Below, piece after piece: positions 1-31,532 of a stretch of 64,000 nt of DNA (positions are counted from its first letter, which is position 1; each line of letters begins with the position of its first letter). Made by a program: the position numbers and the translations under genes. A model generated the notes under the pieces. It saw only the letters and a list, made by a program, of their open reading frames with translations, was not told the origin of the DNA and ran no database searches. The stretch is from Flavobacterium sp. 5 (GTDB lineage: Bacteria; Bacteroidota; Bacteroidia; Flavobacteriales; Flavobacteriaceae), in NCBI RefSeq assembly GCF_002813295.1, contig NZ_PHUE01000001.1:868001-932000 (forward strand), written 5' to 3'.

Positions 1-138
1 GAAATAGCTTTTAAACTAAATTATTCCAGTGTTGCTCATTTAAGTTCACAATTTAAAAACACAACTGGTATAACGCCTTCTGCCTTTCAAAGAATTATAA
101 CTAAACGAAGGGAAATTGCCACCAAAAATAAAAACTAA
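1..138 (+). CDS. AraC-family transcriptional regulator, C-terminal end (partial)
   Basis: Only the last 45 codons and the TAA stop are in the window; the gene enters from the left edge. The reading frame starting at base 1 gives EIAFKLNYSSVAHLSSQFK followed by TGITPSAFQRI. This matches the second helix-turn-helix of AraC/XylS DNA-binding domains, including the conserved 'F...TG.TP..F/YR' end. The protein should be a cytoplasmic DNA-binding regulator; its sensory N-terminus is not visible. It ends 3 bases before the response regulator at 142, so the two may be cotranscribed. Target genes cannot be inferred from this fragment. Confidence 0.8.
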   Translation, partial: EIAFKLNYSSVAHLSSQFKNTTGITPSAFQRIITKRREIATKNKN

Positions 139-15960: not shown

Positions 15961-16044
15961 TTATTTTTATTTAATCTAAATAAGCTTTGCTGATATAGAA
16001 TTACTGTTTACATTTGCGGCGTTATTTTTAATAAATCTAAATAA
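15961..16044 (+). promoter_or_regulatory. iron-type promoter with duplicated 23-bp operator (receptor at 16046)
   Basis: Upstream operator TTATTT-N11-AAATAA at 15961-15983; -33 box TTTG at 15986-15989; 19 bases; -7 box TACATTTG at 16009-16016; downstream operator TTATTT-N11-AAATAA at 16022-16044. The second operator covers the likely start of transcription and ends one base before the ATG. The same layout occurs at three more promoters here. Fur is the inferred regulator because of the genes controlled. Confidence 0.8.
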
Positions 16045-16045
16045 A

Positions 16046-18178
16046 ATGAAGAACGTAATTTTACTATCCTCAGTTATCTTGTTATCGGTAGCTAGTTTTG
16101 CACAAGAAATAAAAAAAGATACAGTTAGTAACTTAAAAGAAGTACAAGTCACTAACAAGTACAAATACAAAAGAGAAAAAAGTACCACCGTATCCAAAAT
16201 GCCACTTAAGGATATTGAAAACCCACAAGTTTATAATACAGTAACAAGTGAATTATTAAAAGAACAAGTTGTTACTAATTTAAATGACGCCCTTAAAAAC
16301 GCAACAGGTATAACACGTCTTTGGGAATCTACAGGTCGTGGAACTGATGGAGCTGAATATTTTAGTATGAGAGGTTTCGCTGTTCAACCAACAATGACGA
16401 ATGGTTTACCTGCTGTTGCAAACACTACAATTGATCCAATTAATGTTGATAATATTGAAGTTATTAAAGGACCTTCTGGAACATTATTCGGTAGTAGCTT
16501 AATTTCTTACGGAGGTCTAATCAATATTGTAACTAAAAAACCATATAATTTTTTTGGTGGAGAAATAGGATATACTTCTGGAACTTATGGGATGGACAGA
16601 GTTACTGCAGATATTAATATCCCACTAAACAAAGATGTTTCTATCCGAATGAATTCAGCTTACCAAAATGAAAACTCATTCCAAGATTCAGGTTTTTCAA
16701 AATCATTTTTCTTTGCTCCTTCAATAAGCTATAAAGTAAATGACAAATTATCATTTTTAGTAAATACAGAATTTACAAGTAGAAACTCAGCGATTGCTCC
16801 AATGGTTTTCTTGAGCAGATACACTCCTCTAACTTTTCACTCAATGGATTTGTTTGAACAAAATTACAAAAAATCATATAATTCAAATGATTTGGTAATG
16901 AGCAACCCTTCTTTCAATATGCAAACACAGATGTTTTATAAAATATCTGAACAATGGACCTCTCAAACAGTTTTATCAAGAAGTAATACCAAGTCTTTTG
17001 GTTACTACTCATACCTTTATGATTCAGGAAATGGTGACGAATTTACAAGATCTATTAATAAAGCAAACGGTCAAACGAATACAACGGACATTCAACAAAA
17101 CTTTATTGGTGATTTTAAAATTGCTGGTTTAAGAAACCGATTAGTAGTAGGTGTAGATTATTATAATTCAAACATCCAAAGCGGAAGTTCTGGATGGGCA
17201 GCTAATGGAGTCATTTCATTAGTAAATCAAAGCGATACAGGAGATTTAACTCAAGCTGGAGTAGATGATTTATTGAAAGGGACATTTACAGGAAATACAA
17301 CAGCCAAAACTCAAGTTCTTAGTACATATGTATCAGATGTTTTTAACATTACAGATCGCCTTTCGGCAATGGCAAGTTTAAGAATTGATAATTTTAAATC
17401 TACTGACGCTGATGAATCACATGATCAAACTGCATTGTCTCCAAAATTTGGTATAGTATACCAGATAATAGAAGATAAAGTTTCTGTATTTGGTAACTAC
17501 ATGAATGGTTTTACTAATGTATTACCAAAACAAGTTCAAATTGGTACTACTACCAGTACAAAATCTTTCGATCCAGAGCATGCAAATCAATTTGAATTTG
17601 GATTAAAAACTAACTTATACAAAGACATCGTTTCTGCAACAATCAGTTATTATGATATTGATGTAAAAGATAAAGTAATAACAGATCCTGTTACCTTTAC
17701 TAATTATATCCAAGGAGGATCAGTATATAGCAAAGGTATTGAAGTAAGTCTTACTGCTAACCCAACTAAAGGTTTAAACTTAATTGCAGGTTTTAGTAAC
17801 AATAAAAGCAAAACAACAAATGAAGTTTTTGCAGGTTCAGGTTATTTAGACATGAGACCAGAAGAGGCAGGTCCAGAAACTTTAGTTAACTTTTGGGCTA
17901 ACTATGCTTTCCAAGAAGGTAACTTAAAAGGATTTGCATTAGGATTTGGAGGAAACTATGCTAGTGAAAACAAAACATTAAACCGTTCTACTATTGGTAC
18001 ATTCGCATTACCAAGTTATACAGTATTGAACTCTGTACTTTCATACAATACTAGTAAATTTGGTATCTCTTTAAAAGCGAACAACCTTTTAAATGAAAAA
18101 TATTATTCAGGATGGTCAACTGTAACACCTCAACGTTTAAGAAGTGTATATGCTGGTCTAACTTACAAGTTTCAATAA
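16046..18178 (+). CDS. TonB-dependent siderophore receptor
   Basis: A 710-residue outer-membrane receptor that should import a ferric siderophore with TonB energy. The signal peptide ends SFAQ (residue 20). It has no N-terminal carboxypeptidase-like domain. The plug domain (about 55-165) contains the SMRGF motif and VIKGPSGTLFGSSLISYGG, and then INIVTKKP leads into the 22-strand barrel ending LTYKFQ. These motifs are of the siderophore receptor subfamily. Its promoter carries two copies of the 23-bp iron-type operator, and a PepSY membrane protein follows at 18251. A hairpin at 18210 lies between the two genes and may reduce read-through. The ligand cannot be told from sequence. Confidence 0.92.
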   Translation: MKNVILLSSVILLSVASFAQEIKKDTVSNLKEVQVTNKYKYKREKSTTVSKMPLKDIENPQVYNTVTSELLKEQVVTNLNDALKNATGITRLWESTGRGTDGAEYFSMRGFAVQPTMTNGLPAVANTTIDPINVDNIEVIKGPSGTLFGSSLISYGGLINIVTKKPYNFFGGEIGYTSGTYGMDRVTADINIPLNKDVSIRMNSAYQNENSFQDSGFSKSFFFAPSISYKVNDKLSFLVNTEFTSRNSAIAPMVFLSRYTPLTFHSMDLFEQNYKKSYNSNDLVMSNPSFNMQTQMFYKISEQWTSQTVLSRSNTKSFGYYSYLYDSGNGDEFTRSINKANGQTNTTDIQQNFIGDFKIAGLRNRLVVGVDYYNSNIQSGSSGWAANGVISLVNQSDTGDLTQAGVDDLLKGTFTGNTTAKTQVLSTYVSDVFNITDRLSAMASLRIDNFKSTDADESHDQTALSPKFGIVYQIIEDKVSVFGNYMNGFTNVLPKQVQIGTTTSTKSFDPEHANQFEFGLKTNLYKDIVSATISYYDIDVKDKVITDPVTFTNYIQGGSVYSKGIEVSLTANPTKGLNLIAGFSNNKSKTTNEVFAGSGYLDMRPEEAGPETLVNFWANYAFQEGNLKGFALGFGGNYASENKTLNRSTIGTFALPSYTVLNSVLSYNTSKFGISLKANNLLNEKYYSGWSTVTPQRLRSVYAGLTYKFQ

Positions 18179-18250: not shown

Positions 18251-19435
18251 ATGAAGAATAATACTTTAAAAAAGGCAATTGGTAAGATACATTTATGGCT
18301 TGGACTGTCATCAGGTATTATTGTTTTTATCATTGCCATTACAGGTTGTCTATATGCTTTTCAAGAAGAAATACAGAATTATACCGAAGAATATCGCTTT
18401 GTAGAAAAACAAAACAAACCTTTTCTCTTGCCTTCTCAATTGGAACTCATAGCTAGAAAAGAACTACCTAACAAATCACTGCATGCCATCAAATATAATG
18501 GTCCAGAAAAATCAGCAGAAGCAATATTCTACCATTATCAACCTGATTATTATTTTATAGTTTATCTCAATCCTTATACAGGTAAAGTTATTGAGACTAT
18601 CAACATGGATGAAGGTTTTTTCAGATTTATCTTAGACGGACATTATTATCTTTGGTTGCCACATGAAATTGGACAAATGATTTGTGCATCGGCTACATTA
18701 ATTTTTCTTATACTCATTCTTTCAGGATTGTATCTATGGTTCCCAAGAAATAAAAATGCAATTAAACAACGGTTTTCATTCAAATGGAAAGCAACAACAA
18801 AATGGAAACGTAAAAACTATGACTTACATAATATCACAGGCTTTTATATACTTTCAATTGCGCTTATATTCGCTATTACAGGTTTAGTTTGGGGATTTCA
18901 ATGGTTTGGCTACTCCTATTACACTGTACTTGGCGGGGAAAAATCACTACTTTATGAGGACCCAGCTTCTATAAAAAGCTCCATTCATCCCATAAAACCA
19001 TTGGATAAAATTTGGATGCAAATGCAAAAAGAATACCCAAATGCAAAATCCATAGAAGTACATCCACCAGAAAATGATAGTACGTCTATTGCCGCCAATG
19101 CCAACCCAGAAGAAGGAACATTTTGGAAAACAGATTACCGTTATTTTGACCAATATTCTTTAAAGGAAATTGAAGTCAAACATTTTTACGGGAAATATAA
19201 AAATGCAGTCGTTGCTGATAAAGTAATGCGTATGAATTACGATCTTCATACAGGAGCTGTCTTGGGTTTAGCAGGAAAAATATTTGCTTTTTTAATTAGC
19301 TTGCTTATTGCTAGTCTTCCTATATCGGGTTTTTACATTTGGTGGGGACGAAATAGAAAAGAAAAAAGAAAAGTAGCTACCTACACTAATCCTATTGATG
19401 ATCTCCTTATTGAAGCAGAGAAAGTAGAACTTTAA
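18251..19435 (+). CDS. PepSY-associated membrane protein, probable ferric-siderophore reductase
   Basis: A 394-residue inner-membrane protein of the PepSY_TM family. There are four main membrane segments: ~15-35 in GKIHLWLGLSSGIIVFII, ~140-160, ~190-215 after the conserved YDLHNITGFY, and ~345-370 after MNYDLHTGAVLGL. Periplasmic PepSY-like regions lie between. The paired His residues in these motifs fit a haem- or metal-linked electron path. Characterised relatives such as FoxB and FpvG of Pseudomonas reduce ferric siderophores in the periplasm; by analogy this protein may release iron brought in by the receptor at 16046. It has no operator of its own, lies 72 bases downstream, and is closed by a strong terminator at 19514. 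Confidence 0.85.
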   Translation: MKNNTLKKAIGKIHLWLGLSSGIIVFIIAITGCLYAFQEEIQNYTEEYRFVEKQNKPFLLPSQLELIARKELPNKSLHAIKYNGPEKSAEAIFYHYQPDYYFIVYLNPYTGKVIETINMDEGFFRFILDGHYYLWLPHEIGQMICASATLIFLILILSGLYLWFPRNKNAIKQRFSFKWKATTKWKRKNYDLHNITGFYILSIALIFAITGLVWGFQWFGYSYYTVLGGEKSLLYEDPASIKSSIHPIKPLDKIWMQMQKEYPNAKSIEVHPPENDSTSIAANANPEEGTFWKTDYRYFDQYSLKEIEVKHFYGKYKNAVVADKVMRMNYDLHTGAVLGLAGKIFAFLISLLIASLPISGFYIWWGRNRKEKRKVATYTNPIDDLLIEAEKVEL

Positions 19436-19826: not shown

Positions 19827-19907
19827 TTATTCATAATTAATCTAAATAATATTTGTTAAAGAAGTATTAATTTATACATTTGTTTTATTTTTATTTATTC
19901 TAAATAA
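19827..19907 (+). promoter_or_regulatory. iron-type promoter with duplicated 23-bp operator (receptor at 19937)
   Basis: Upstream element TTATTC-N11-AAATAA at 19827-19849; TTTG at 19852-19855; 19 bases; TACATTTG at 19875-19882; downstream element TTATTT-N11-AAATAA at 19885-19907. Distance between the two operator starts is 58 bases. Confidence 0.8.
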
Positions 19908-19936
19908 AAATACTTTAACTTATATATACTTAAATC

Positions 19937-22420
19937 ATGAATTATTTGAATCCAAGAATAACAAAATTCTTATATGCAATTACCTTGTTCTTACTCTTAA
20001 CAACAATTGTTTCAGCCCAAAAAAAAACAGGGACCATAAAAGGAACTATAAAAAATAATCAAGGCAAAGCCGCCGAATTTGTAAACGTGGACCTAAAAGA
20101 AATAAACAAAGGAGCCGTAACTGACGAAAGTGGGGAGTATAAAATAGAGAACATAAAACAAGGAACATATACCATCATAATCTCGGGAATTGGTATAAAA
20201 AAGAAAACACAAACTATCGAAATAAAAGCGGACAAAAGTAACTATTCAATAGATTTTGAAGTAGAGGAAAATATAGGACAACTAGATGAAATAGTTGTTT
20301 CAGGATTTAGAGAACGTACTTATAGAAACGAGATGTCTGTTGCTTCATCCAAATCTACTATCCCTTTGAAAGACCTGCCACAATCTGTAGGCTACGTTAC
20401 AAAAGAACTAATTATAGACAGACAAGCTTTTCGAGTAAACGATGTTTTAAAAAACATTAGTGGGGTCAGTCTTAACAACTTTGAAAACCGCTTTTCAATA
20501 AGAGGAATTTCTGGAAATAGTTATCAATTCATAAATGGATTGAGAGTAAGCGGAAGATCTTTCAATTCATTAAATCTAAACAATCTAGAACGGGTTGAAG
20601 TAATGAAAGGTCCTGCATCTGCATTATATGGAAATACAGAACCAGGTGGCTCAATTAATAATGTAACTAAAAAAGCATTATCAGTAAATAGAAATTCAGC
20701 CAATGTAAGTGTCGGAAGCTTTCAAACAATTCGAGCTACAACTGATTTAACTGGACCATTAAACGAATCCAAAAGCATTTTATATCGTATGAATGTGGCA
20801 TATCAAAATACTGCTACATTCAGAGATTTACAAGAAAGAGAAGACGTATCAATAGCACCAACCATCTCTTTTGTACCTAGCGAAAAAACACGAATTGATG
20901 TCGATTTTGTTTATAGTATCATCAAAGGTAGAACCGAAAGAGGACAGCCAATATATGGCCCTTCTACCGATGGTGCCAGCCGTTTATTTACAACTCCTAA
21001 TTCGCAAAGTATGTCAAGGGCAAGTGATTATTTAAAAGAAAAAACCTTTTATCTATCGGCAATTATGAATCATCAATTTAACAGCAAACTGTCGTTGAAT
21101 GTATCTTATTTGAAGTATAAATTCTTTGAAGATATGGTAGAACATAGAGGTGGTAATGCATATGCACTAGACGGAACAGGAAAAGAAATCCCCTCTTTAT
21201 TATTGCAAAGCACAACAGAACGTATGCGTAATCGTTATGATGATAATCTTACCACATACCTAAATTATGATGTAAACACAGGGAAAATAGAACACAAAAT
21301 AGTATTAGGTGCCGATTATATTCAAAGCTTAGTACCAGTTGGTGGAACAAATGGTGTAGCATCTGGTTATAGAAATGCTGCCAATACAGCTTCGATAGCT
21401 ACATATAATCCAGACAAGAAGAATCTGTATTTATTAGATGCTAACGGAAATCCAGTACCTAATGTTCCTTTTTACAATTTAGCAAATCCAGATTATTCTG
21501 CAGCCGATACTGATAATTATTTTACAACTAGAACTGCTACGGCTCCTACCAAATATTTCTCGCAAAGTATTTACATACAAGACCAAATGAAATGGAATAG
21601 ATTACAACTTCTTTTGGGTTTAAGACAAGAATTCTATACAGATTATACAAATTATACAAAAGCTACAGAAGCAACAGTGAAGCAACATGCTCTAATTCCA
21701 AGAGTTGGATTAGTTTACAGTATAATTCCTCAAATTAACATTTATGGAACTTATGTAGAAGGTTTTCAGCCACAAAGTGCAGGAACTATTGGTGCTCCAG
21801 AAATTTATGGCGGGCCATTTGACCCACTTACTAGTAAAATGGTCGAGTTTGGTGCAAAAAGCGATTGGTTTGATAAAAAATTAGGCGTTAGTATTGCTGC
21901 CTACAAAATCAACCAAAATAATATTTTAGTAAATGCCAACGACCCTACAAACACACAATTATTAGAACAAAGAGGTCAAGAAACATCAAAAGGTGTTGAA
22001 GTTGATATTACTGGAAATATTTTACCTAATTTATCAATAAATGCAAATTACGCATATAACGATGCGCGCATTACAAAAACAGCAGTTGCAGCTGATGTTG
22101 ATAGATGGAAAGAAGCAGCACCACATCATCAGGGCGGATTTTGGGCAAAATATACCATTTTGCAAGGAAGTATCAAAGGCTTCGGAATTGGTTTGGGCTC
22201 AAATTTTGCTTCAAAACAAAGCACTCGATTAGCTTATTTTATTTTACCAGGTTATACACTTATAGATGCAGCTTTGTATTATCAAGTAAAACAGTTGAAA
22301 TTTTCTTTAAACCTAAACAACCTTCAAAACAAAGAATATATCGTATCACAAGCCAATGCAAATATGGTTGGTCCTGGCTCACCACGAAACTATATGTTCA
22401 ATATGGGATATACATTCTAA
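19937..22420 (+). CDS. TonB-dependent siderophore receptor with carboxypeptidase-like N-terminal domain
   Basis: An 827-residue outer-membrane receptor. A signal peptide (1-27, ending VSAQ) is followed by a CarboxypepD_reg-like domain (about 33-115) containing [20 protein letters not shown]. Then come a TonB-box-like [10 protein letters not shown], a plug (about 128-240) with [13 protein letters not shown] and [17 protein letters not shown], and a barrel ending MFNMGYTF. The plug motifs are of the siderophore-receptor class. It is preceded by the duplicated operator and followed 28 bases later by a secreted DUF4198-like protein, which probably shares its transcript. The substrate is unknown, but iron regulation is inferred from the operator. 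Confidence 0.92.
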
Positions 22421-22448: not shown

Positions 22449-23162
22449 ATGAAAAATTTTACATCAAAATTACTTCTAGGATTTATTCTATTCACAACAA
22501 CAATTACAAATGCCCATAATACTTACCTACAAGTAAAAGGTTCTGGCAAGATTAACGACAAAGTAGAAATACAGATATTTAAAGCCGAATATGGTAAAGA
22601 AGCTCCCGAAAAAGGAACTAAAATAGATAATTTGAAAGCTATAAAAATCTATTTGATTGATGCCTCTGGAAGCAAAACTGAAATTACAATGACCCAAACT
22701 GAAACACATTGGCAAGGTTTCTTTGTGCCAAAAACTACTGGAAACTATCAGATAATTGGAATTAATGATCAAAATGAAGTTAAAGATATGTCCAAAAAAC
22801 ATCTTGGACTTGTGCGTAGTATTTTATATCTTAAAACTAACTATACAGTTAAAACTTCTAAAGCTATAGAGAATACTATTTTTCCTTTGGACATTACTGC
22901 TCAAAAGCAAAATACAAATTATTTATTGACTGCCTTTAAAGATAAAAAACAACAAGCCAATTTGGCAATAACTGTAATCAATCCAGATGGTTGGGTACAG
23001 ACACTAGAATCAAATGAAATAGGTCAAGCTAATTTTACTCCAAACAAAAAAGGATTATATCTCGTAAACTTGGAGTGGATCGATAATACTAAAGGTAATT
23101 TTAAAGACAAAGCTTTTGATAATACAATTAACAAAACTGTACTGTCTTTAATTATTGAATAA
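22449..23162 (+). CDS. secreted DUF4198-like protein
   Basis: A 237-residue periplasmic or surface protein. The signal peptide ends near ITNA, so the mature protein would begin HNTYLQV. An N-terminal His after cleavage is typical of the DUF4198 family, which often accompanies metal transport genes and may bind metal through that His (inference). The rest is beta-rich with two immunoglobulin-like halves (for example HWQGFFVPKTTGNYQIIG and ANFTPNKKGLYLVNLEW). It lies 28 bases after the receptor at 19937 and is closed by a terminator at 23194, so the two form one iron-regulated unit. Confidence 0.75.
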   Translation: MKNFTSKLLLGFILFTTTITNAHNTYLQVKGSGKINDKVEIQIFKAEYGKEAPEKGTKIDNLKAIKIYLIDASGSKTEITMTQTETHWQGFFVPKTTGNYQIIGINDQNEVKDMSKKHLGLVRSILYLKTNYTVKTSKAIENTIFPLDITAQKQNTNYLLTAFKDKKQQANLAITVINPDGWVQTLESNEIGQANFTPNKKGLYLVNLEWIDNTKGNFKDKAFDNTINKTVLSLIIE

Positions 23163-23363: not shown

Positions 23364-23444
23364 AGTTTATTATAAACCATAAATAATGATTGCTATTGTA
23401 TTAATATTTTTTACATTTGCGTTATTTTTATTTATTCTAAATAG
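23364..23444 (+). promoter_or_regulatory. iron-type promoter with duplicated operator (ankyrin operon)
   Basis: Downstream element TTATTT-N11-AAATAG at 23422-23444; -7 box TACATTTG at 23412-23419; 19 bases; -33 box ATTG at 23389-23392. A degenerate upstream element with only its right half conserved (AAATAA at 23381-23386) lies at 23364-23386, in exactly the register seen at the other promoters. The leader before the ATG at 23499 is about 75 bases. Confidence 0.75.
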
Positions 23445-23498
23445 ATTTTGATGAAATTAATTATAACCACAATTACCAAATAACTTTTACTCGGTATT

Positions 23499-25010
23499 AT
23501 GAACAAAAAACTTCTCATTTCATTTGCATTGGTAACTACATTCTTTGTTAGTGCTCAACAAAAAAATACACTTTTGGAACAGTCATTTTGGAAGACAAAT
23601 CCAGATGTAACTACTGTCCAAGCTGAAATAGCAAAAGGCAATAATCCATCGGAATCTAATGACAGAGCATTTGATGCTGTAACTTTAGCCATTAATAATG
23701 ATGCCCCAAACACAACAATAAAATTTTTATTAGAACAAGCTGGAAACCCTGTTACCAAAAACACTCACGACAATCGTCGATACTTACACTGGGCGGCCAG
23801 CAAAGGAAATATTGAAATTGTAAATTACCTTATATCAAAAGGAGCAGATATTAATTATGAAGATAGTCTTGGAACAACTGCACTTGTTCTGGCAGCAAGC
23901 AGTGGTCAAAAAAACACCGCCGTATATGAAGCTTTTTTCAAAGCGGGATTAGACCCTAAGAAAAAATACAAAGACAATGTTACTTTGCTACTTATGGCGA
24001 TACCATATGACAAAGATCTTTCGTTAACCAATTATTTTATTTCTAAAGGTTTGTCTTTAAAAGACACCGATAAAGACGGAAATACTCCATTTAATTATGC
24101 AACAAAAACAGGGGATTTAAACTTTTTAAAAACATTAGTTGAAAAAGGAGTAAAATACAATGACAACGCCCTTATTATTGCAGCACAAGGGAATCGTCGT
24201 GAGTCAAATCCTATCGAAGTGTATCAATATTTAGTAGAAATATTAAAATTGAAACCAACTGTTGTTTCTACTGACGAAGAAACTATACTTCACTTTTTAG
24301 TTACAAAACCAAAACAATCTGAAATCATTAATTATTTTATCGCTAAAGGTGTTGATGTCAACAAAGTAGATAAACAAGGAAATACTGTTTTAATGAAAGC
24401 GGCATCGGCTAGAGAAAATACCGAAGCATTAGAATTGTTACTCCCTATTGTAAAAAACAGTGCTGCTCTAAATACTAAAGGCGAATCAGCTTTAACAATA
24501 GCAGTTCAGTCTGGAACTCCAAAGGCTGTCGAAATTTTATTAAACAATGGAGCTGATGTGAAAATTGTAAACAAAGAAGGTTATAATTTAGGAGTAAATT
24601 TGATACAATCCTACCGACCACAAATGAATCGTGGGCCAGAAAGTGGGAATGGTCCTAAACAAGATCCTTTTGCTACAAAAATGAAATTACTACAGGACAA
24701 AGGATTAGATTTAGCAGCTCCTCAAAAAGACGGAAGTACATTATATCACTTTGCATTATTGAAAAACGACTTAACTTTGCTAAAAAAATTAGCTGATTTA
24801 AAAATCGATGTCAATGCCAAAAACAAAGAAGGATTAACAGCCTTGCACAAAGCTGCAATGGTAGCCAAAGATGATGTTATCTTAAAATATCTAATCTCAA
24901 TTGGAGCCAAAAACGACATTAAAACCGAATTTGATGAAACGGCTTATGCTTTAGCAAAAGAAAACGAAACCTTAACCCAAAACAACGTGTCTGTTGAATT
25001 TTTAAAATAA
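23499..25010 (+). CDS. secreted ankyrin-repeat protein
   Basis: A 503-residue protein with a signal peptide (MNKKLLISFALVTTFFVSAQ) and about ten ankyrin repeats across residues 50-490. Typical units are YLHWAASKGNIEIVNYLISK, GNTVLMKAASARENTEALEL and GLTALHKAAMVAKDDVILKY. Ankyrin repeats bind other proteins and carry no catalysis. A secreted copy, under an iron-type operator, is unusual. It is translated just ahead of the flavoprotein candidate at 25015 (4-base gap), so it may scaffold the electron-transfer proteins in the periplasm (inference). Confidence 0.88.
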   Translation: MNKKLLISFALVTTFFVSAQQKNTLLEQSFWKTNPDVTTVQAEIAKGNNPSESNDRAFDAVTLAINNDAPNTTIKFLLEQAGNPVTKNTHDNRRYLHWAASKGNIEIVNYLISKGADINYEDSLGTTALVLAASSGQKNTAVYEAFFKAGLDPKKKYKDNVTLLLMAIPYDKDLSLTNYFISKGLSLKDTDKDGNTPFNYATKTGDLNFLKTLVEKGVKYNDNALIIAAQGNRRESNPIEVYQYLVEILKLKPTVVSTDEETILHFLVTKPKQSEIINYFIAKGVDVNKVDKQGNTVLMKAASARENTEALELLLPIVKNSAALNTKGESALTIAVQSGTPKAVEILLNNGADVKIVNKEGYNLGVNLIQSYRPQMNRGPESGNGPKQDPFATKMKLLQDKGLDLAAPQKDGSTLYHFALLKNDLTLLKKLADLKIDVNAKNKEGLTALHKAAMVAKDDVILKYLISIGAKNDIKTEFDETAYALAKENETLTQNNVSVEFLK

Positions 25011-25014
25011 TAAA

Positions 25015-25497
25015 ATGAAGTCAATATTTAAAACCGTTATAGCATTTATGCTATTATGCCTTATTTCTTTTCAAGGAAATGCACAAACCAGCAAATACAA
25101 ATGCATGCTACAAATGTCTAATTATGTAGGCGAAGGTGCTTATATCGTAGTATCACTTGTTAGTCCTAAAGGCGAATACGAGAAAACGCTTTATGTAATG
25201 GGAGATGATAAAAAATGGTACAAAAGTTTGAAAGAATGGCATAAATTTTATTCCAAAAAACCAACCGATATTAGCGCTACAACAGGAGCTTCTGTAACTG
25301 GAGGAGATCGTAGTATTACCACTTTTGAAATTGAAGATTCTAAAATCAACAAGGGATACAAATTACGTTTTGAATCTTCAGTTGAAGATCAAAAATATTA
25401 TACTGCCGATTTAGAACTTCCTTTAACAACAGAAGCAATGGCTGATAAAACAGAAGGAAAAGGATATATTCGCTACGTAAGATTGAATAAAATCTAG
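25015..25497 (+). CDS. secreted DUF2271 protein, probable ApbE-flavinylated electron carrier
   Basis: A 160-residue protein with a signal peptide (1-24, ending GNAQ), so it is exported. The body matches DUF2271, with NYVGEGAYIVVSLVSPKGEY followed by EKTLYVMG and DKKWYKSLKEWHKFY. Residues 85-96 read DISATTGASVTG. TGAS at 90-93 fits the [ST]GA[ST] signature where ApbE attaches FMN (as in NqrC), which makes S93 the likely flavinylated residue, with upstream D85 as part of the motif. DUF2271 proteins have been linked to ApbE systems (from memory). ApbE is encoded in the same cluster at 27807. Its start is 4 bases after the ankyrin stop, so translation is probably coupled. A hairpin at 25510 separates it from the reductase gene. 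Confidence 0.85.
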   Translation: MKSIFKTVIAFMLLCLISFQGNAQTSKYKCMLQMSNYVGEGAYIVVSLVSPKGEYEKTLYVMGDDKKWYKSLKEWHKFYSKKPTDISATTGASVTGGDRSITTFEIEDSKINKGYKLRFESSVEDQKYYTADLELPLTTEAMADKTEGKGYIRYVRLNKI

Positions 25498-25509
25498 ATT
25501 TTCACTATT

Positions 25510-25560
25510 TAACATATAAGTCATATAAATTTACTTTTTTCTTATGTGACTTATATGTTA
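25510..25560 (+). terminator. 19-bp hairpin inside the operon (attenuator-like or mRNA-stability element)
   Basis: The left arm 25510-25528 pairs with the right arm 25542-25560 over 19 positions with one G-U pair; the loop is 13 bases. The stem is AT-rich, and A rather than T follows, so it is a poor terminator. It may instead set the ratio of the upstream and downstream genes. Confidence 0.5.
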
Positions 25561-25583
25561 AAACATTTAAACATACATATTGC

Positions 25584-27770
25584 ATGACTCTTTCTTTTTG
25601 GCGTTACACACACTTAACCTTGGCGATTTTTTCTGTTACATTTTTAATTGTAGCATCTGTTACAGGTACTATACTCGCTGTAGATGCTGTACAAGAGAAG
25701 ATACCTACCTACCGAGTAGAAAATTTTAAGGAAATAACTTTACAGGAATCTTTATCAAAACTCCGAAAAATTTATCCTGAAATAACCGAATTAAGTGTAG
25801 ACCACAATCAATTTGTAACCTTACAAGCGATTGATAAAGAAGGAAACGATATCAATGCCTATATTAATCCTTTGACAGGGAAAATTATTGGCACACCACA
25901 CAAAAAAAGCGATTTTATTAAATGGATTACTTCTCTACATCGCTCTCTATTTCTTCATGAAGCAGGACGTTTATTTGTTGGAATTAATGCTTTTCTTTTA
26001 CTCTTAATTGCTATTTCAGGTTTTGCTCTAGTAATTAACAGACAAAAAGGTTTGAGGAAATTCTTTTCAAAAATAATTAAAGAATATTTTGCTCAATATT
26101 ATCATGTTTTATTTGGCCGATTGGCTTTAATTCCAATTTTGATTATTGCTCTTTCGGGAACCTATTTATCAATGGAACGTTTTCATTTATTTGAAAACAA
26201 AAAAGAAGAAAAAACTAAAATAGAATCTAATTCTACAACTGTTGCCAAAAGTAAATTTGATTTTAAAAACACGCTTCTCGCAGATGTTACTAAAATCGAA
26301 TTCCCTTTTTCTGATGATGCCGAAGACTATTATACCTTTGAATTAAATGACCGAAAAATTGAAGTCGAACAATATTCAAAAGAAATAATTACGGAAGAAC
26401 GTTTTCCAATTTCAGCTATTTTATCGGAGTTGAGTTTGGATTTACATACTGGCCGTGCCAATGCTTTTTGGGCAATTATTCTCGGATTAGCTTCATTAAA
26501 TATTCTTTTCTTTATTTATTCAGGTTTTGCGATGACATTAAAACGCAGAGCGAGTCGCATCAAAAACAAATACAAAGCTGATGAAAGTAAATTCATTTTA
26601 TTAATTGGAAGCGAAAATGGAAGTACGTTGCGTTTTGTCAATTCTATTTTAAAACAATTAAATAATCACGGAGAAAAAGCACATCTTGCCCAACTTAATG
26701 ATTATACTCATTACCCAAAAGCGGAACATTTATTAATTTTTACATCAACCTATGGTTTGGGGGATGCACCATCTAATGCGGGCAAGTTTATATCGCTTTT
26801 GGACAAACACAATCAAACACAAAAAATTAATTATTCGGTAATTGGTTTTGGCTCTACATCATATCCAGATTTTTGTGGTTATGCCAAACAAATTGATATT
26901 TTATTAGCCAATCAAAATTGGGCACACCGATTAACAGAATTACAAACTGTAAACGACAAATCGGCTGAAGAATTTGTGAGTTGGGTAAAAATATGGAATA
27001 AAAAAACAGACATTGAGCTCGCCACTACTCCATCTTTATATAATCATATTCCAAAAGGTTTAGAAAAACTGATGGTTTTAGAAAAAACAACCGTTTCAGA
27101 TACTGAAAAAACTTTTTTATTGACTTTACGCACTGGCATGCGCAGTAAATTTACTTCGGGTGATTTACTAGCCATTTATCCTGCTAACGATAATCGAGAA
27201 CGTTTGTATTCAATTGCCAAAAATAATGGAAATATTCAATTGGCTGTAAAACTACACCCTTCTGGATTGGGTTCAGAATTTTTATACAATACAAAAGTAG
27301 GAGACGTTCTCAAAGCTCGAATCATAAATAATCATGCTTTTCATTTTCCTAAAAAAGCCAAAAAAGTAGTCTTTATTTCAAACGGGACCGGTATTGCCCC
27401 ATTTCTTGGAATGATCGAACAAAACACCAAAAAAGCCGAAATTCATTTGTATAGTGGCTTCCGCCAAAAAACTGAAATCACGTCTTATTATGAAGAATTC
27501 GCTTCAAGAATGATTCAGAAACAACGTTTAATCAATTTACATTTAGCTTTTTCTAGAGAACAAGACCATCATTATGTAATGGATTTGATTAAAAGAGATG
27601 AAAACTTTTTTGCCGATTTATTAAAAAATGATGGAACAATAATGATTTGTGGAGCACTAAAAATGCAATTTGACGTAGAAAATATTTTGGATGCAATTTG
27701 CTTAGAGAAAAATAATACTACGCTTGCTCATTATATAACGAAAGGCCAAATTTTAACGGATTGCTATTAG
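25584..27770 (+). CDS. PepSY membrane protein fused to flavodoxin/NADPH-flavin reductase
   Basis: A 728-residue fusion. Residues 1-330 are a PepSY_TM module: THLTLAIFSVTFLIVASVTG at the start, membrane helices near 10-30, 135-155, 175-195 and 295-315, and SLDLHTGRANAFWAI before the last helix. Residues ~338-460 are a flavodoxin domain with the phosphate loop GSENGST (342-348). Residues ~490-728 are an FAD/NADPH ferredoxin-reductase module with RERLYS (538-543, FAD) and NGTGIAPF (600-607, NADPH). The reductase half should face the cytosol. The likely task is to carry electrons from NADPH across the membrane to the periplasm (inference from domain order). A terminal DCY tail fits a reductase end. 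The next gene encodes ApbE. Confidence 0.9.
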   Translation: MTLSFWRYTHLTLAIFSVTFLIVASVTGTILAVDAVQEKIPTYRVENFKEITLQESLSKLRKIYPEITELSVDHNQFVTLQAIDKEGNDINAYINPLTGKIIGTPHKKSDFIKWITSLHRSLFLHEAGRLFVGINAFLLLLIAISGFALVINRQKGLRKFFSKIIKEYFAQYYHVLFGRLALIPILIIALSGTYLSMERFHLFENKKEEKTKIESNSTTVAKSKFDFKNTLLADVTKIEFPFSDDAEDYYTFELNDRKIEVEQYSKEIITEERFPISAILSELSLDLHTGRANAFWAIILGLASLNILFFIYSGFAMTLKRRASRIKNKYKADESKFILLIGSENGSTLRFVNSILKQLNNHGEKAHLAQLNDYTHYPKAEHLLIFTSTYGLGDAPSNAGKFISLLDKHNQTQKINYSVIGFGSTSYPDFCGYAKQIDILLANQNWAHRLTELQTVNDKSAEEFVSWVKIWNKKTDIELATTPSLYNHIPKGLEKLMVLEKTTVSDTEKTFLLTLRTGMRSKFTSGDLLAIYPANDNRERLYSIAKNNGNIQLAVKLHPSGLGSEFLYNTKVGDVLKARIINNHAFHFPKKAKKVVFISNGTGIAPFLGMIEQNTKKAEIHLYSGFRQKTEITSYYEEFASRMIQKQRLINLHLAFSREQDHHYVMDLIKRDENFFADLLKNDGTIMICGALKMQFDVENILDAICLEKNNTTLAHYITKGQILTDCY

Positions 27771-27806
27771 TACTTATTTTAACAACTTCTAAAGCAGGAA
27801 AACAAA

Positions 27807-28811
27807 ATGAATACCAAATCAATAACAACTTTTTTTATAATTATTTTTCAGATTGTCAGCTTAAATAGCAATGCCCAAGTTTTACGTAAAAGAAACACAA
27901 TGTTGATGGGTGGTCGTTTTGATATTACTATTGTAGCCAAAGATTCGCTTTCAGCAGAACAAAGTATCGATGAAGTTATTGTCGAAATTTCGAGAATAGA
28001 ATACTTAATTTCGGATTGGAAACCTACAACGCAAATTTCGGAAGTCAATCAAAATGCAGGAATCTGTCCCGTGAAAGTAGATAAAGAAGTCTTTGAATTA
28101 ACCCAAAGAGCACTTCATTTTTCAGAAATTACCAATGGGGGTTTTGATATTAGTTTTGCCGCTATGGATAGAATTTGGAAATTTGATGGATCGATGACCG
28201 AAATGCCTTCGGCGGAAGCTATCAAAAAATCGGTAGAGAAAGTTGGTTATAAAAACATTATTTTGGATAGTATAAACTCGACCATTTTCCTAAAACTGAA
28301 AGGGATGAAAATTGGATTTGGTGCTTTGGGAGAAGGTTATGCAACCAACAAATGTAAAGAAATGATGCTTGCCAAAGGAATCGAAGCTGGAATTGTAAAC
28401 GGCACTGGAGATATGAGTACTTGGGGACAACAACCCAACGGAAAACCATGGAATATTGGCATTACCAATCCGTTTCATCCTGAAAAATTATTAGCTGTAG
28501 TTCCACTTTCTGGAGCAGTTACCACTTCAGGTTCCTATGAAAAGTTTGTAGTATTTGGTGGTAAACGTTATTCGCACATCATTAACCCTTCAACTGGCTA
28601 TCCTGTAACTGGTTTATGCAGTGTAACTGTTTTTGGACCTAATGCAGAAATAGCTAATGGCTTGAGCACTTCCTTGATGGTTTTAGGTAAAACAGCAGGA
28701 TTATCGTTACTTGAAAAATTCCCTGATTACAGCTGCATTATGATTACTGACGCTGGAAAAGTAGTAAAATCGAAAAACTTCAAAATCAAAAAATTCAAAG
28801 CCAAATTGTAA
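27807..28811 (+). CDS. apbE: FAD:protein FMN transferase
   Basis: A 334-residue exported flavin transferase: it cleaves FAD and links FMN to a Thr or Ser of the target protein, using Mg2+. A signal peptide (1-24, ending SNAQ) fits the periplasmic site of action. Family motifs are MLMGGRFDITI near the mature N-terminus, FGALGEGYATNKC, NGTGDMSTWG, TTSGSYEKF and the metal-site region HIINPSTGYP. Length is normal. It lies 36 bases after the reductase gene. The only flavinylation signature seen among its neighbours is in the DUF2271 protein at 25015, which is therefore its likely substrate. Confidence 0.94.
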   Translation: MNTKSITTFFIIIFQIVSLNSNAQVLRKRNTMLMGGRFDITIVAKDSLSAEQSIDEVIVEISRIEYLISDWKPTTQISEVNQNAGICPVKVDKEVFELTQRALHFSEITNGGFDISFAAMDRIWKFDGSMTEMPSAEAIKKSVEKVGYKNIILDSINSTIFLKLKGMKIGFGALGEGYATNKCKEMMLAKGIEAGIVNGTGDMSTWGQQPNGKPWNIGITNPFHPEKLLAVVPLSGAVTTSGSYEKFVVFGGKRYSHIINPSTGYPVTGLCSVTVFGPNAEIANGLSTSLMVLGKTAGLSLLEKFPDYSCIMITDAGKVVKSKNFKIKKFKAKL

Positions 28812-29097: not shown

Positions 29098-29181
29098 TTA
29101 TTAATATTTATTCTAAATAAACTTTGTGAAACCAAATTGACGACCTATATTTGCAATGTTATTTTTAATTATTCCAAATAA
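29098..29181 (+). promoter_or_regulatory. iron-type promoter with duplicated 23-bp operator (receptor at 29187)
   Basis: Upstream element TTATTA-N11-AAATAA at 29098-29120; TTTG at 29123-29126; 19 bases; TATATTTG at 29146-29153; downstream element TTATTT-N11-AAATAA at 29159-29181, ending five bases before the ATG. Between the apbE stop and 29097 (about 285 bases) nothing gene-like is seen. Confidence 0.8.
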
Positions 29182-29186
29182 ACATC

Positions 29187-31532
29187 ATGAAATATATTTT
29201 ACTCCCCTTGACATTCTTAGCTCTCAGCTTAAATACTCAAGCTCAAGAAATTGCAAGCAATAGTTCACAATCTAATGATAAAGAACTTTACTATTTTTCT
29301 TCGGATACTATAAAATCAGCAAATGATACTGTTAAGAAAAGAAAAGGACAAGAATTAAAAGAAGTTATTGTTACTGGAAATAAACCACAAAAACCTGTTT
29401 CTGCATTGCGTTCTGGTTTAAAACCAATGGATATTCCCCAGAGTGTTCAAGTAATTGGTTCAGAAATCATTGAGCAACAACAAGCAATCCGCTTGAGTGA
29501 TGTAATAAAAAATGCCAACGGTGTCTATGTAGGTTCAGCTCGTGGTGGAGCTCAAGAATCATTATTCTCAAGAGGATATGATATGTCTGCCAACAATATG
29601 TTTAAAAACGGTTTCCGTTATAATGCAGGTTCAATTCCTGATGTTGCATCTTTAGAAAGAGTAGAATTTCTTAAAGGTGGTTCTGCTTTATTATTTGGAA
29701 ACGTCACTCCTGGTGGAATCCTAAATTTGGTAACAAAAACACCAAAATTTACAGAAGGGGGACAATTTACAATGCAAATGGGAAGCTATGCTTTTTACAA
29801 ACCATCTATTGACATTTATGGTCCATTAAATAAATCTATAGCTTATAGATTCAATGCATCTTACGAAAATTCAGAAAGTTTTAGAGATTATGTAAAAAAT
29901 GATCGTATATATATAAATCCATCGGTATTGTTCAAAATTTCAGACAAAACTCAGATCATAGCTCAAGGAGATTATCTAAGTGCTGACTGGATTCCTGATT
30001 TTGGAACTGGAATCGTAAATAACACTAAAACCATTTTAGACATTCCTCGCAATGTGTATTTTGGAGCCCTTTGGTCAACAGGTAACACTAAATCATCAAG
30101 TGCATCGATAGTATTTAATCACGATTTTAATGACAACTGGAAATTAGGTTTCAATTCCTCATATCAATCCTATCAAAGAACTCAAAAATCTACATCACAG
30201 CTAAGCACAGTTGAAGCCAATGGAAACTGGAAACGTGGTCTAACCCAATCTGACGCCGCCGAAAATATATTTGGTGATCAATTGAGTTTGCAAGGGACTT
30301 TCAATACGGGAAAAATCAAACACCAAATTTTTACAGGTATGGATTATGAAAGTTCAACTGCACCAAGCTATACTTTTGGTTTTTATGATCCAGCAAAACC
30401 TGCAGATCTTATAACAACAGAAGCTACACCAATAAACCTTTTTAACTACGATTATAGTACGCAAAGTCTAAATGTACCATATCCAACTAGAATAACACAA
30501 CTAGCTACTACTGATACCCAAAGATTTGGAATTTATGCACAGGATTTACTTTCGATTAACAAGTATGTAAAGGTTCTGGCAGGACTGCGTTGGTCATGGC
30601 AAGAAAGTGACGTTACTACAACAAAAGAAGAAATAAAAAAAATCGATAATATAAATACCATTACAACGACTTATGAAAATGCAATTCCTACAACAGGAGG
30701 TAAATCTATAAACAGTGCTTTTTCTCCAAAAATAGGATTGGTAATTCAGCCTAATAAAGAATTGTCTTTATTTGCGAGCTACTCAAACTCATTTACTCCA
30801 AATACAGGAACAACAGTAAATTTAGAAACATTAGACCCTTCTATAATAGACCAATACGAAGTAGGTATCAAAAAAGATTTCTGGAAAGGCCTTTTGAGCA
30901 CCAATATAACTGTATATCAAATATCTAATAATAATTTAGCACAAACAGCTCAATATCTAGCTGATGGTGTGACCCAAAACGTAACTACTACTATAAAAGA
31001 ATTAGTAGGAGCAACAAAAGGAAAAGGAATAGAAATAGACATTACTGCTAGACCTATTACAGGTTTAAATATTAATGCTGGATATAGCTTTAATGAAACC
31101 AAAGTTTCTGAGTCTTCTGGTACAAATGGTAGCTTAGTTGTAGGAGACGTTCTAGCAAGAACACCTAAAAACACAGCCAATTTAAGCTTCTTCTACACTT
31201 TGCCTAGCGGTGTATTAAAAGGACTTTCTTTTGGAGCTATCGGAAATTATATTGGAAATCGTACTGGAGGATGGAATGATGACTATTTATGGACAGAAAA
31301 AACACCTGCAACCAATCCAAAAACATATACTGTAACTATCAGAGATCGTGATATTCCATTAGAGGGATACACAACTGTTGATGCGTCTGTTGGTTATGAT
31401 TGGAAAAAAATATCAATCTTATGTAAATTATCAAATATTACAAATGAATTGAATTATACTGTACATGAAAATTATAGTGTAAACCCAATTGCACCTCGTC
31501 AGGTACTAGTAAGTTTGAAATACAAATTATAA
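29187..31532 (+). CDS. TonB-dependent siderophore receptor
   Basis: A 781-residue outer-membrane receptor with signal peptide MKYILLPLTFLALSLNTQAQ. An N-terminal extension with many D, S and N (21-57) precedes the TonB-box-like LKEVIVTGN. The plug (about 75-180) contains SGLKPMDIPQSVQVIG and ERVEFLKGGSALLFGNVTPGG, and then the barrel ends APRQVLVSLKYKL. The plug resembles ferrichrome/hydroxamate-type siderophore receptors, but the substrate is not shown. It is monocistronic, with its own duplicated operator and a terminator at 31658. Its sequence differs clearly from the receptors at 16046 and 19937, so the three probably take different siderophores. Confidence 0.92.
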   Translation: MKYILLPLTFLALSLNTQAQEIASNSSQSNDKELYYFSSDTIKSANDTVKKRKGQELKEVIVTGNKPQKPVSALRSGLKPMDIPQSVQVIGSEIIEQQQAIRLSDVIKNANGVYVGSARGGAQESLFSRGYDMSANNMFKNGFRYNAGSIPDVASLERVEFLKGGSALLFGNVTPGGILNLVTKTPKFTEGGQFTMQMGSYAFYKPSIDIYGPLNKSIAYRFNASYENSESFRDYVKNDRIYINPSVLFKISDKTQIIAQGDYLSADWIPDFGTGIVNNTKTILDIPRNVYFGALWSTGNTKSSSASIVFNHDFNDNWKLGFNSSYQSYQRTQKSTSQLSTVEANGNWKRGLTQSDAAENIFGDQLSLQGTFNTGKIKHQIFTGMDYESSTAPSYTFGFYDPAKPADLITTEATPINLFNYDYSTQSLNVPYPTRITQLATTDTQRFGIYAQDLLSINKYVKVLAGLRWSWQESDVTTTKEEIKKIDNINTITTTYENAIPTTGGKSINSAFSPKIGLVIQPNKELSLFASYSNSFTPNTGTTVNLETLDPSIIDQYEVGIKKDFWKGLLSTNITVYQISNNNLAQTAQYLADGVTQNVTTTIKELVGATKGKGIEIDITARPITGLNINAGYSFNETKVSESSGTNGSLVVGDVLARTPKNTANLSFFYTLPSGVLKGLSFGAIGNYIGNRTGGWNDDYLWTEKTPATNPKTYTVTIRDRDIPLEGYTTVDASVGYDWKKISILCKLSNITNELNYTVHENYSVNPIAPRQVLVSLKYKL

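Follow-up and report, generated by a model that had tools for sequence, protein, structure and literature searches.

An ankyrin-associated, iron-type redox operon of Flavobacterium with an altered ApbE and predicted flavin-acceptor motif

A 64,000-nt window from Flavobacterium sp. 5, which is the whole stretch of DNA analysed here and part of one contig of a 4.97 Mb genome, carries four consecutive plus-strand open reading frames (ORFs) for an ankyrin-repeat protein, a DUF2271 protein, a PepSY-flavodoxin-reductase fusion, and an ApbE-family protein, as found from an ORF listing and Pfam searches (Table 1). These genes form a real, well-conserved iron-type redox operon of a kind that has already been described. 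Three of its features are new to us: the core set consists of the ankyrin protein, DUF2271, and the PepSY reductase, with ApbE as an optional member; one operator is common to the operon, to siderophore receptors, and to HmuY-linked genes; and the ApbE and its presumed acceptor motif form an altered pair.

With a probability of roughly two in three, the operon encodes an inner-membrane iron-reduction chain with an ankyrin-docked flavin carrier and a private ApbE. The PepSY-flavodoxin-reductase would take electrons from NADPH via FAD and FMN and pass them through two hemes within the membrane to the DUF2271 protein, whose FMN would be held at Ser93 (S93), installed by the operon's own ApbE. The ankyrin protein would dock this carrier near an incoming ferric siderophore or heme, whose iron, once reduced, would come free of its ligand for uptake as Fe2+. 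Secretion and membrane topology, the flavinylation of S93, the direction of electron flow, the iron substrate, and the docking role are all features that we infer.

The electron-transfer protein and its described relatives

The preliminary description of this DNA had joined the four genes into one redox device, and that proposal has held. The genes were found at the coordinates it gave, as were the RERLYS, NGTGIAPF, and GSENGST motifs of the fusion and the TGAS motif of DUF2271 (residues 90–93), of which S93 is the last residue; NADPH-type diflavin domains matching P450 reductases, four invariant His residues, and an operator common with receptor genes are likewise supported. The PepSY_TM domain of the fusion (PF03929, E 2.7e-34) adjoins DUF2271 and ApbE by Pfam annotation, and His10, His119, His174, and His288 are invariant in 166 of 166 sequences. 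These four residues fit a two-heme PepSY core, through which the electrons would presumably travel. The best PDB matches by sequence are NADPH-cytochrome P450 reductases, and since these are the nearest relatives, NADPH is the probable donor; the 50 matches listed by a fold search were all reductases or reductase fusions, with the P450 enzymes again at the top. These enzymes likewise combine an FMN flavodoxin with an FAD/NADPH module, whereas here the module is fused to a PepSY membrane domain. At two loci (L084 and L085), shortened PepSY proteins of 473 and 487 aa keep the flavodoxin region and end before the reductase; DUF2271 is present at both, with no ankyrin gene.

FoxB (PDB 7abw), another member of the PepSY_TM family, has two heme sites with two conserved His each (PMC11334425), and the operon's PepSY protein has the matching four His, with heme binding predicted. 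FoxB differs in its 382-residue chain, which is shorter by the flavin part, and in its weak sequence match to the fusion (E 0.039); the protein encoded at 18251–19435 is much nearer to it (E 1.6e-12).

The system had been put forward as poorly described, a claim that does not stand, since DUF2271 flavinylation and the iron link of PepSY/DUF2271/ApbE sets were published in 2021 and control by Fur has been reported in Caulobacter. Meheust et al. (2021, PMC8238504) reported that a DUF2271 protein from another organism is flavinylated by its cognate ApbE at an [ST]GA[ST] site, and they defined PepSY-like clusters as flavinylation-associated clusters with a PF03929 or PF16357 protein; among 3220 such clusters, 2833 possess DUF2271 and 1500 a DUF4198 partner. 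The window set is a PepSY-like cluster by this definition. It shares with the published ones a PepSY_TM protein (with an NAD-binding domain in 1077 reported genes), DUF2271, ApbE, DUF4198, and the iron link, the four-gene set of the preliminary description having missed the DUF4198-type gene just upstream (22449–23162). It differs in its ankyrin core, the word "ankyrin" occurring 0 times in the main paper, in an acceptor without Asp and an ApbE without the Mg2+-ligand Asp, and in the HmuY/DUF6607 setting of many relatives. The Caulobacter cluster CC_3059-3063 is iron- and Fur-responsive, and its disruption lowers fitness under EDTA (PMC3751524, PMC12004947). It too unites DUF2271, DUF4198, ApbE, and a flavoprotein reductase, and it differs in that the cluster as listed has no ankyrin gene.

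The ankyrin protein and the conserved gene set

DUF2271 was found in 81 of 299 family genomes, at 84 places including the window's own; the other 83 are the family loci referred to below. DUF2271 is immediately preceded by the ankyrin gene and immediately followed by the PepSY reductase gene in 72 of these 83 loci and in all 80 Flavobacterium loci. F. johnsoniae strain CI04 is among the carriers of the set (L165). The four-family set of the preliminary description is thereby upheld in its ankyrin-DUF2271-PepSY core, ApbE being a variable member. Contig ends truncate some of the 11 loci lacking the triple, and in one (L110) two genes intervene; four have an ankyrin gene and no PepSY gene directly after DUF2271, and the other seven are taken up further on. 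An ortholog of the ankyrin protein (E ≤1e-60, a threshold of our own choosing) occurs in 77 of the 299 family genomes, 76 of them with DUF2271 where about 21 would be expected by chance, and in the sole exception the ankyrin match stops at a contig end.

Among 395 phylum genomes, 12 outside the family have DUF2271 above cut-off (including G637, where it is at a contig start). The ankyrin triple occurs in six of the 12, with ApbE adjacent in five of the six, three of these five having it on the other strand; the remainder comprise four ApbE-DUF2271 fusions without the triple, one genome with no match to the DUF2271 query, and one cut locus. A Spirosoma plasmid also carries the triple, and four proteobacterial plasmid loci with DUF2271 and PepSY have no annotated ankyrin gene in their (incomplete) gene tables. 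From these distributions, a known device seems to have acquired the ankyrin protein in the Bacteroidota. An open-literature search covering the main texts of top-ranked matches found ankyrin linked with neither PepSY, DUF2271, nor bacterial iron uptake.

The ankyrin protein is modelled by AlphaFold at pLDDT 87 and is predicted from its fold matches to be an ordinary ankyrin solenoid. A role as redox carrier was considered and is unlikely, given this ordinary fold and the presence of no Cys and only 5 His in 503 residues.

The operator

The 15-base operator, TTTATTCTAAATARA, has three exact copies in the window (at 19894, 23431, and 29107) against 0.01 expected from shuffles, and only four in the whole genome. 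The window copies precede receptor 1 by 29 bp, the ankyrin gene by 54 bp, and receptor 2 by 66 bp, while the fourth, at 3.16 Mb, lies between a receptor/HmuY pair and a divergent DUF6607 gene, 11 bp before the latter. An operator in common with three siderophore receptors had been proposed; three receptors of the TIGR01783 class are indeed present, but the exact site precedes only two of them, and for the third (16046) the evidence, a site at 15970 with two mismatches, is weak. At up to two mismatches, the window holds 11 sites where 4.4 would be expected, and the exact copies account for three of these. Of 32 one-mismatch sites in the genome, 26 were inspected, and none showed an evident iron gene when the initial residues of the closest ORFs were read by eye.

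Before both receptor 1 and the ankyrin gene, the operator lies 11 nt downstream of TACATTTG, which fits what we take to be the Bacteroidota -7 consensus, TAnnTTTG. A site just downstream of such a putative -7 element is positioned where a repressor could block transcription, and we would expect Fur to bind there. In 70 of the 80 Flavobacterium loci, the core TATTCTAAATA stands no more than 400 bp ahead of the ankyrin gene. When 89 related operons (the 83 family loci and six from outside) were compared with simple two-base block shuffles, the 12-base core was found within 250 bp before 80 of them at up to two mismatches (about 25% in shuffles) and before 45 at up to one (2–3% in shuffles).

Heme and siderophore settings

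Co-occurrence with siderophore receptors across genomes had been named as a check. BLAST with four query receptors found a receptor-like gene within seven genes of the set in 61 of the 83 family loci. Of the 83, 67 sit with DUF6607, HmuY, or heme-type receptor genes (52) or with an MxcH-like receptor and lipoprotein (15 more), so that the cargo need not be a siderophore. DUF6607 stands upstream of the set in 51 loci, 40 have a heme-type receptor nearby, and 32 have HmuY, the link of DUF6607 with heme itself resting on neighbourhood. Outside the genus, the set mostly keeps company with HmuY/DUF6607 or MxcH-like genes, with no apbE nearby and with NqrC-type FMN_bind and apbE elsewhere. The MxcH-like receptor and lipoprotein occur in 16 loci altogether, and the 463-aa lipoprotein has no Pfam match and no PDB relative; as a guess, it might be XusB-like.

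Such neighbourhoods speak for the likeliest alternative, namely that the chain mainly serves heme, reducing heme iron from HmuY-type proteins, and that in Flavobacterium it was moved to a siderophore setting only later. The organism's own DUF6607/receptor-HmuY locus also holds the fourth exact operator. This alternative is nevertheless rather improbable: all but one of the 16 MxcH-linked loci are without heme-type genes, all three window receptors are of the siderophore class, and the organism's own HmuY locus, in which DUF6686-DUF6607 diverge from receptor-HmuY in the same order as in relatives and without the triple, lies about 2.3 Mb from the operon. On the simplest view, one operator serves a triple that moves between loci for heme and loci for siderophores. 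The heme link had a precursor in Zhu et al. (2022, PMC9331221), who placed the heme genes of F. psychrophilum in a region that responds to iron and includes genes predicted to transfer electrons across the membrane.

An altered ApbE and acceptor motif

A lack of conservation at S93 had been named beforehand as fatal to the proposed device; all 164 aligned DUF2271 sequences, the window protein included, have Ser or Thr at this position. The four-letter motif [ST]GA[ST] is matched by 146 of the 164, again including the window protein. The seven-residue motif D-x-x-[ST]-G-A-[ST] is absent, the window having S-A-T-T-G-A-S, and Ser occupies the place of the motif Asp in 81 of 81 window-plus-Flavobacterium rows. 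The earlier view of S93 as a plain ApbE target therefore fails on two counts, this Ser in place of the upstream Asp and an Asn in ApbE in place of a Mg2+-ligand Asp.

Across a motif table of 174 DUF2271 rows, the residues at positions 87..93 are S..S in 83 rows, A..S in one, and D..S in one where apbE is a neighbour (window included), and D..T in 84, D..S in one, and S..S in four elsewhere; all 85 rows in which apbE is a neighbour thus retain the acceptor Ser. Two of the four S..S rows without such a neighbour are on short contigs (L147, L173), one has apbE a few ORFs further off (L169), and in one (L178) apbE was present in an earlier listing and dropped from later gene calls, where a gap of 1,092 bases remains. 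The Bacteroidota clade with its own apbE mostly has SxxTGAS against DxxTGAT elsewhere. A 2025 review of ApbE calls the motif Asp strictly conserved and reports only a minor loss when it is replaced by Ala and a 10–55% loss when Thr is replaced by Ser (PMC12052999); since such replacements cost little to moderate activity, the Ser motif may still be flavinylated. We regard flavinylation of DUF2271 here as likely. An x-G-E-T acceptor, with Glu for Ala, was seen at 15 loci, 14 of which have DUF6607 upstream (L036, L045, L050, L051, L057, L058, L060, L061, L067-L071, L078, and L107).

The operon ApbE (PF02424, 260 bits against a cut-off of 25.6) is the only ApbE match in its own genome. The 86 dedicated ApbEs all keep S241 and H257, the catalytic Ser and His, and T288, and all have Asn284 at a position that aligns with Vc Asp285, FmnB (7esa) Asp301, and TM1553. 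The same position is Asp in 20 of 20 Nqr-type ApbEs (from 20 sampled of 79 genomes) and in 19 of 20 other Flavobacterium ApbEs. This Asp is one of three conserved active-site residues (PMC12052999); in FmnB it binds both Mg2+ ions, and Ala at the Mg2+-binding residues, Asp301 included, greatly reduces or abolishes activity (PMC8906456). The Treponema Ftp paper, searched by term for its metal-site residues, yielded nothing.

Asn284 is not quite exclusive to DUF2271 partners, as another Flavobacterium ApbE (L284, in genome G373) shares it; that gene adjoins one for a DUF3570 protein, DUF3570 being another published ApbE substrate, and no DUF2271 was found in that genome. A further ApbE class of Flavobacterium (L290-L293) is set with a thioredoxin-like gene, as judged by eye, and with DUF3570 in the two proteins scanned. 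In four related loci (L205-L208), fused ApbE-DUF2271 proteins have Gly at the Mg2+-ligand position and no [ST]GA[ST] motif, so that both halves look changed, while neither Asp has been lost at the proteobacterial DUF2271 loci that have an apbE of their own (Paracoccus, Shinella). Repeated co-loss of the two Asp residues was considered and rejected, because a quick-method PepSY tree of 71 rows places all 11 Bacteroidota own-apbE rows (nine S..S, one A..S, one D..S) in one clade, which points to a single event. Moreover, the two losses are not locked together, since one locus of the genus (L211) combines an Asn-type ApbE with a motif that has retained its Asp. Being a single change in one clade, the pattern is suggestive of co-adaptation between ApbE and acceptor and is not proof of it.

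The location of apbE varies with the presence of Nqr, for which FMN_bind (NqrC type) was used as a proxy. ApbE was present in 80 of 80 genomes tested (the 81 DUF2271 genomes less G127) and FMN_bind in 79, missing only in the organism's own. The 79 genomes belong to other genera; on the contig that carries DUF2271, none of them has an ApbE within 10 kb of it, and in 68 an ApbE lies within 16 kb of FMN_bind. Among genus genomes with a strong DUF2271 match, apbE is at most 5 kb away in 34 of 35, and FMN_bind occurs in only two of 35; G371 was scored as not adjacent owing to split contigs, and two weak genus matches, both near an ApbE, were left out (G324, G362). A Fisher test of neighbouring apbE against FMN_bind (table [[2,79],[32,1]], p 9e-25) ignores kinship and is descriptive only, and the operon-apbE and Nqr states both follow kinship. 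Together, these distances and counts indicate that apbE is in the operon mostly where no Nqr-type apbE is at hand.

Both sides of the ApbE question meet in the alternative that the window ApbE is not a working transferase, and that DUF2271, without being flavinylated, acts through a bound flavin or as a binding protein. The universal Asn284, the FmnB mutants, the lost acceptor Asp, and the changed fusions would all suit it. It is unlikely, given that S241, H257, and T288 are kept throughout the dedicated ApbEs, that the acceptor Ser persists wherever apbE is a neighbour, and that apbE stays within 5 kb of DUF2271 in nearly every genus genome with a strong DUF2271 match. Asn can also ligate Mg2+.

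Weighing the iron-reduction chain

Several points weigh against an iron-reduction chain of the proposed form. The PepSY model is poor (pLDDT 71, pTM 0.39) and, as noted, its profile match to FoxB is weak; a literature search gave no experiment on this locus. No ankyrin gene stands beside DUF2271 in seven of the 83 family loci, four of which have a PepSY gene, and DUF2271 is accessory in the genus, with matches in 37 of 101 genomes (35 strong). Genome-wide, operator sites at up to one mismatch are near noise, at 36 against 28 in a reversed control. With the four query receptors, no receptor-like gene was found within seven genes in 22 of the 83 family and 42 of the 80 Flavobacterium loci, some of them cut by contig ends. 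Finally, flavinylation cannot be assumed for an ApbE with Asn at the Mg2+-ligand position and an acceptor without the canonical Asp. That the device has a different purpose from iron uptake, for instance periplasmic redox repair needed under iron limitation and hence placed under the same operator, could accommodate the 22 family loci with no receptor-like gene seen nearby, but it is improbable in view of the shared operator, the adjacent receptors, and the iron phenotypes and regulation reported in relatives.

To our knowledge, the periplasmic release of iron from siderophores and heme in Bacteroidota is largely an open question, for which the operon offers a defined core (ankyrin, DUF2271, and PepSY reductase) and a candidate operator. 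It is tempting, if distinctly speculative, to view the triple as an exchangeable, ankyrin-docked iron-release module for siderophore or heme receptors, which might have gained a private Asn-type ApbE and SxxTGAS acceptor, as an orthogonal pair, on entering Nqr-less hosts. Should the altered ApbE prove able to flavinylate the Ser acceptor, a transferase would be at work without an Asp needed where this has been tested, and its tag, perhaps unusable by the usual ApbE, would be useful for flavin-tagging. Should it not, the annotation as FAD:protein FMN transferase would be wrong for this clade.

Neighbouring genes and minor features

Table 1. Positions of the operon, its operators, and adjacent features in the window.
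Feature	Positions	Strand	Basis or remark
TonB-dependent siderophore receptor, in upstream unit with FoxB-like PepSY protein	16046..18178	+	TIGR01783, 233 bits (cut-off 223.5)
PepSY_TM protein without flavin domains, FoxB-like	18251..19435	+	PF03929 E 5e-67; PDB 7abw (FoxB) E 1.6e-12
Operator, exact copy, before receptor 1	19894..19908	+	TACATTTG at 19875-19882, 11 nt upstream
TonB-dependent siderophore receptor 1	19937..22420	+	TIGR01783, 267 bits
DUF4198-type predicted secreted protein	22449..23162	+	PF10670 of homologs
TACATTTG, putative Bacteroidota -7 promoter element	23412..23419	+	Sequence; 11-nt operator spacing as before receptor 1
Operator, exact copy, before operon	23431..23445	+	Exact site
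Ankyrin-repeat protein, 503 aa, predicted secreted	23499..25010	+	Pfam ankyrin repeats; signal peptide by eye
DUF2271 predicted flavin carrier, 160 aa, predicted secreted	25015..25497	+	PF10029 E 3e-36; signal peptide by eye
Acceptor motif SATTGAS, residues 87-93; S93 the predicted FMN site	25273..25293	+	Alignment
Uninterrupted 21-pair hairpin, DUF2271-PepSY gap	25508..25562	+	Folding against shuffles
PepSY_TM + Flavodoxin_1 + FAD_binding_6 + NAD_binding_1 protein, 728 aa	25584..27770	+	Pfam
ApbE-family predicted FMN transferase, 334 aa	27807..28811	+	Pfam ApbE E 3e-77
Asn284 codon, at position of Vc Asp285 / FmnB Asp301 (Mg2+ ligand)	28656..28658	+	Alignment
Operator, exact copy, before receptor 2	29107..29121	+	Exact site
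TonB-dependent siderophore receptor 2	29187..31532	+	TIGR01783, 248 bits

Signal peptides of the ankyrin, DUF2271, ApbE, and DUF4198-type proteins were judged by eye. The DUF4198-type protein has no PF10670 match itself in a Pfam scan, and its assignment comes from homologs, seven of the ten listed carrying PF10670 in precomputed annotation; of two that were rescanned, one scored above the cut-off and one just below it. Its predicted mature N-terminus, like that of five homologs, begins with His (AHN or AHG), which is possibly a metal ligand. Two kinds of PepSY protein stand close together in the window, the FoxB-like protein and the flavodoxin-reductase fusion.

Within the operon, the DUF2271 ORF starts 4 bases after the ankyrin ORF, and the gap between DUF2271 and PepSY holds a strong hairpin (z -7.7, with none of 200 dinucleotide shuffles as stable). 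Among the corresponding Flavobacterium gaps (80 in all), 41 of the 56 that are at least 40 nt long fold at z < -3 against mononucleotide shuffles. The hairpin may set the DUF2271:PepSY ratio, perhaps through transcript processing or attenuation.

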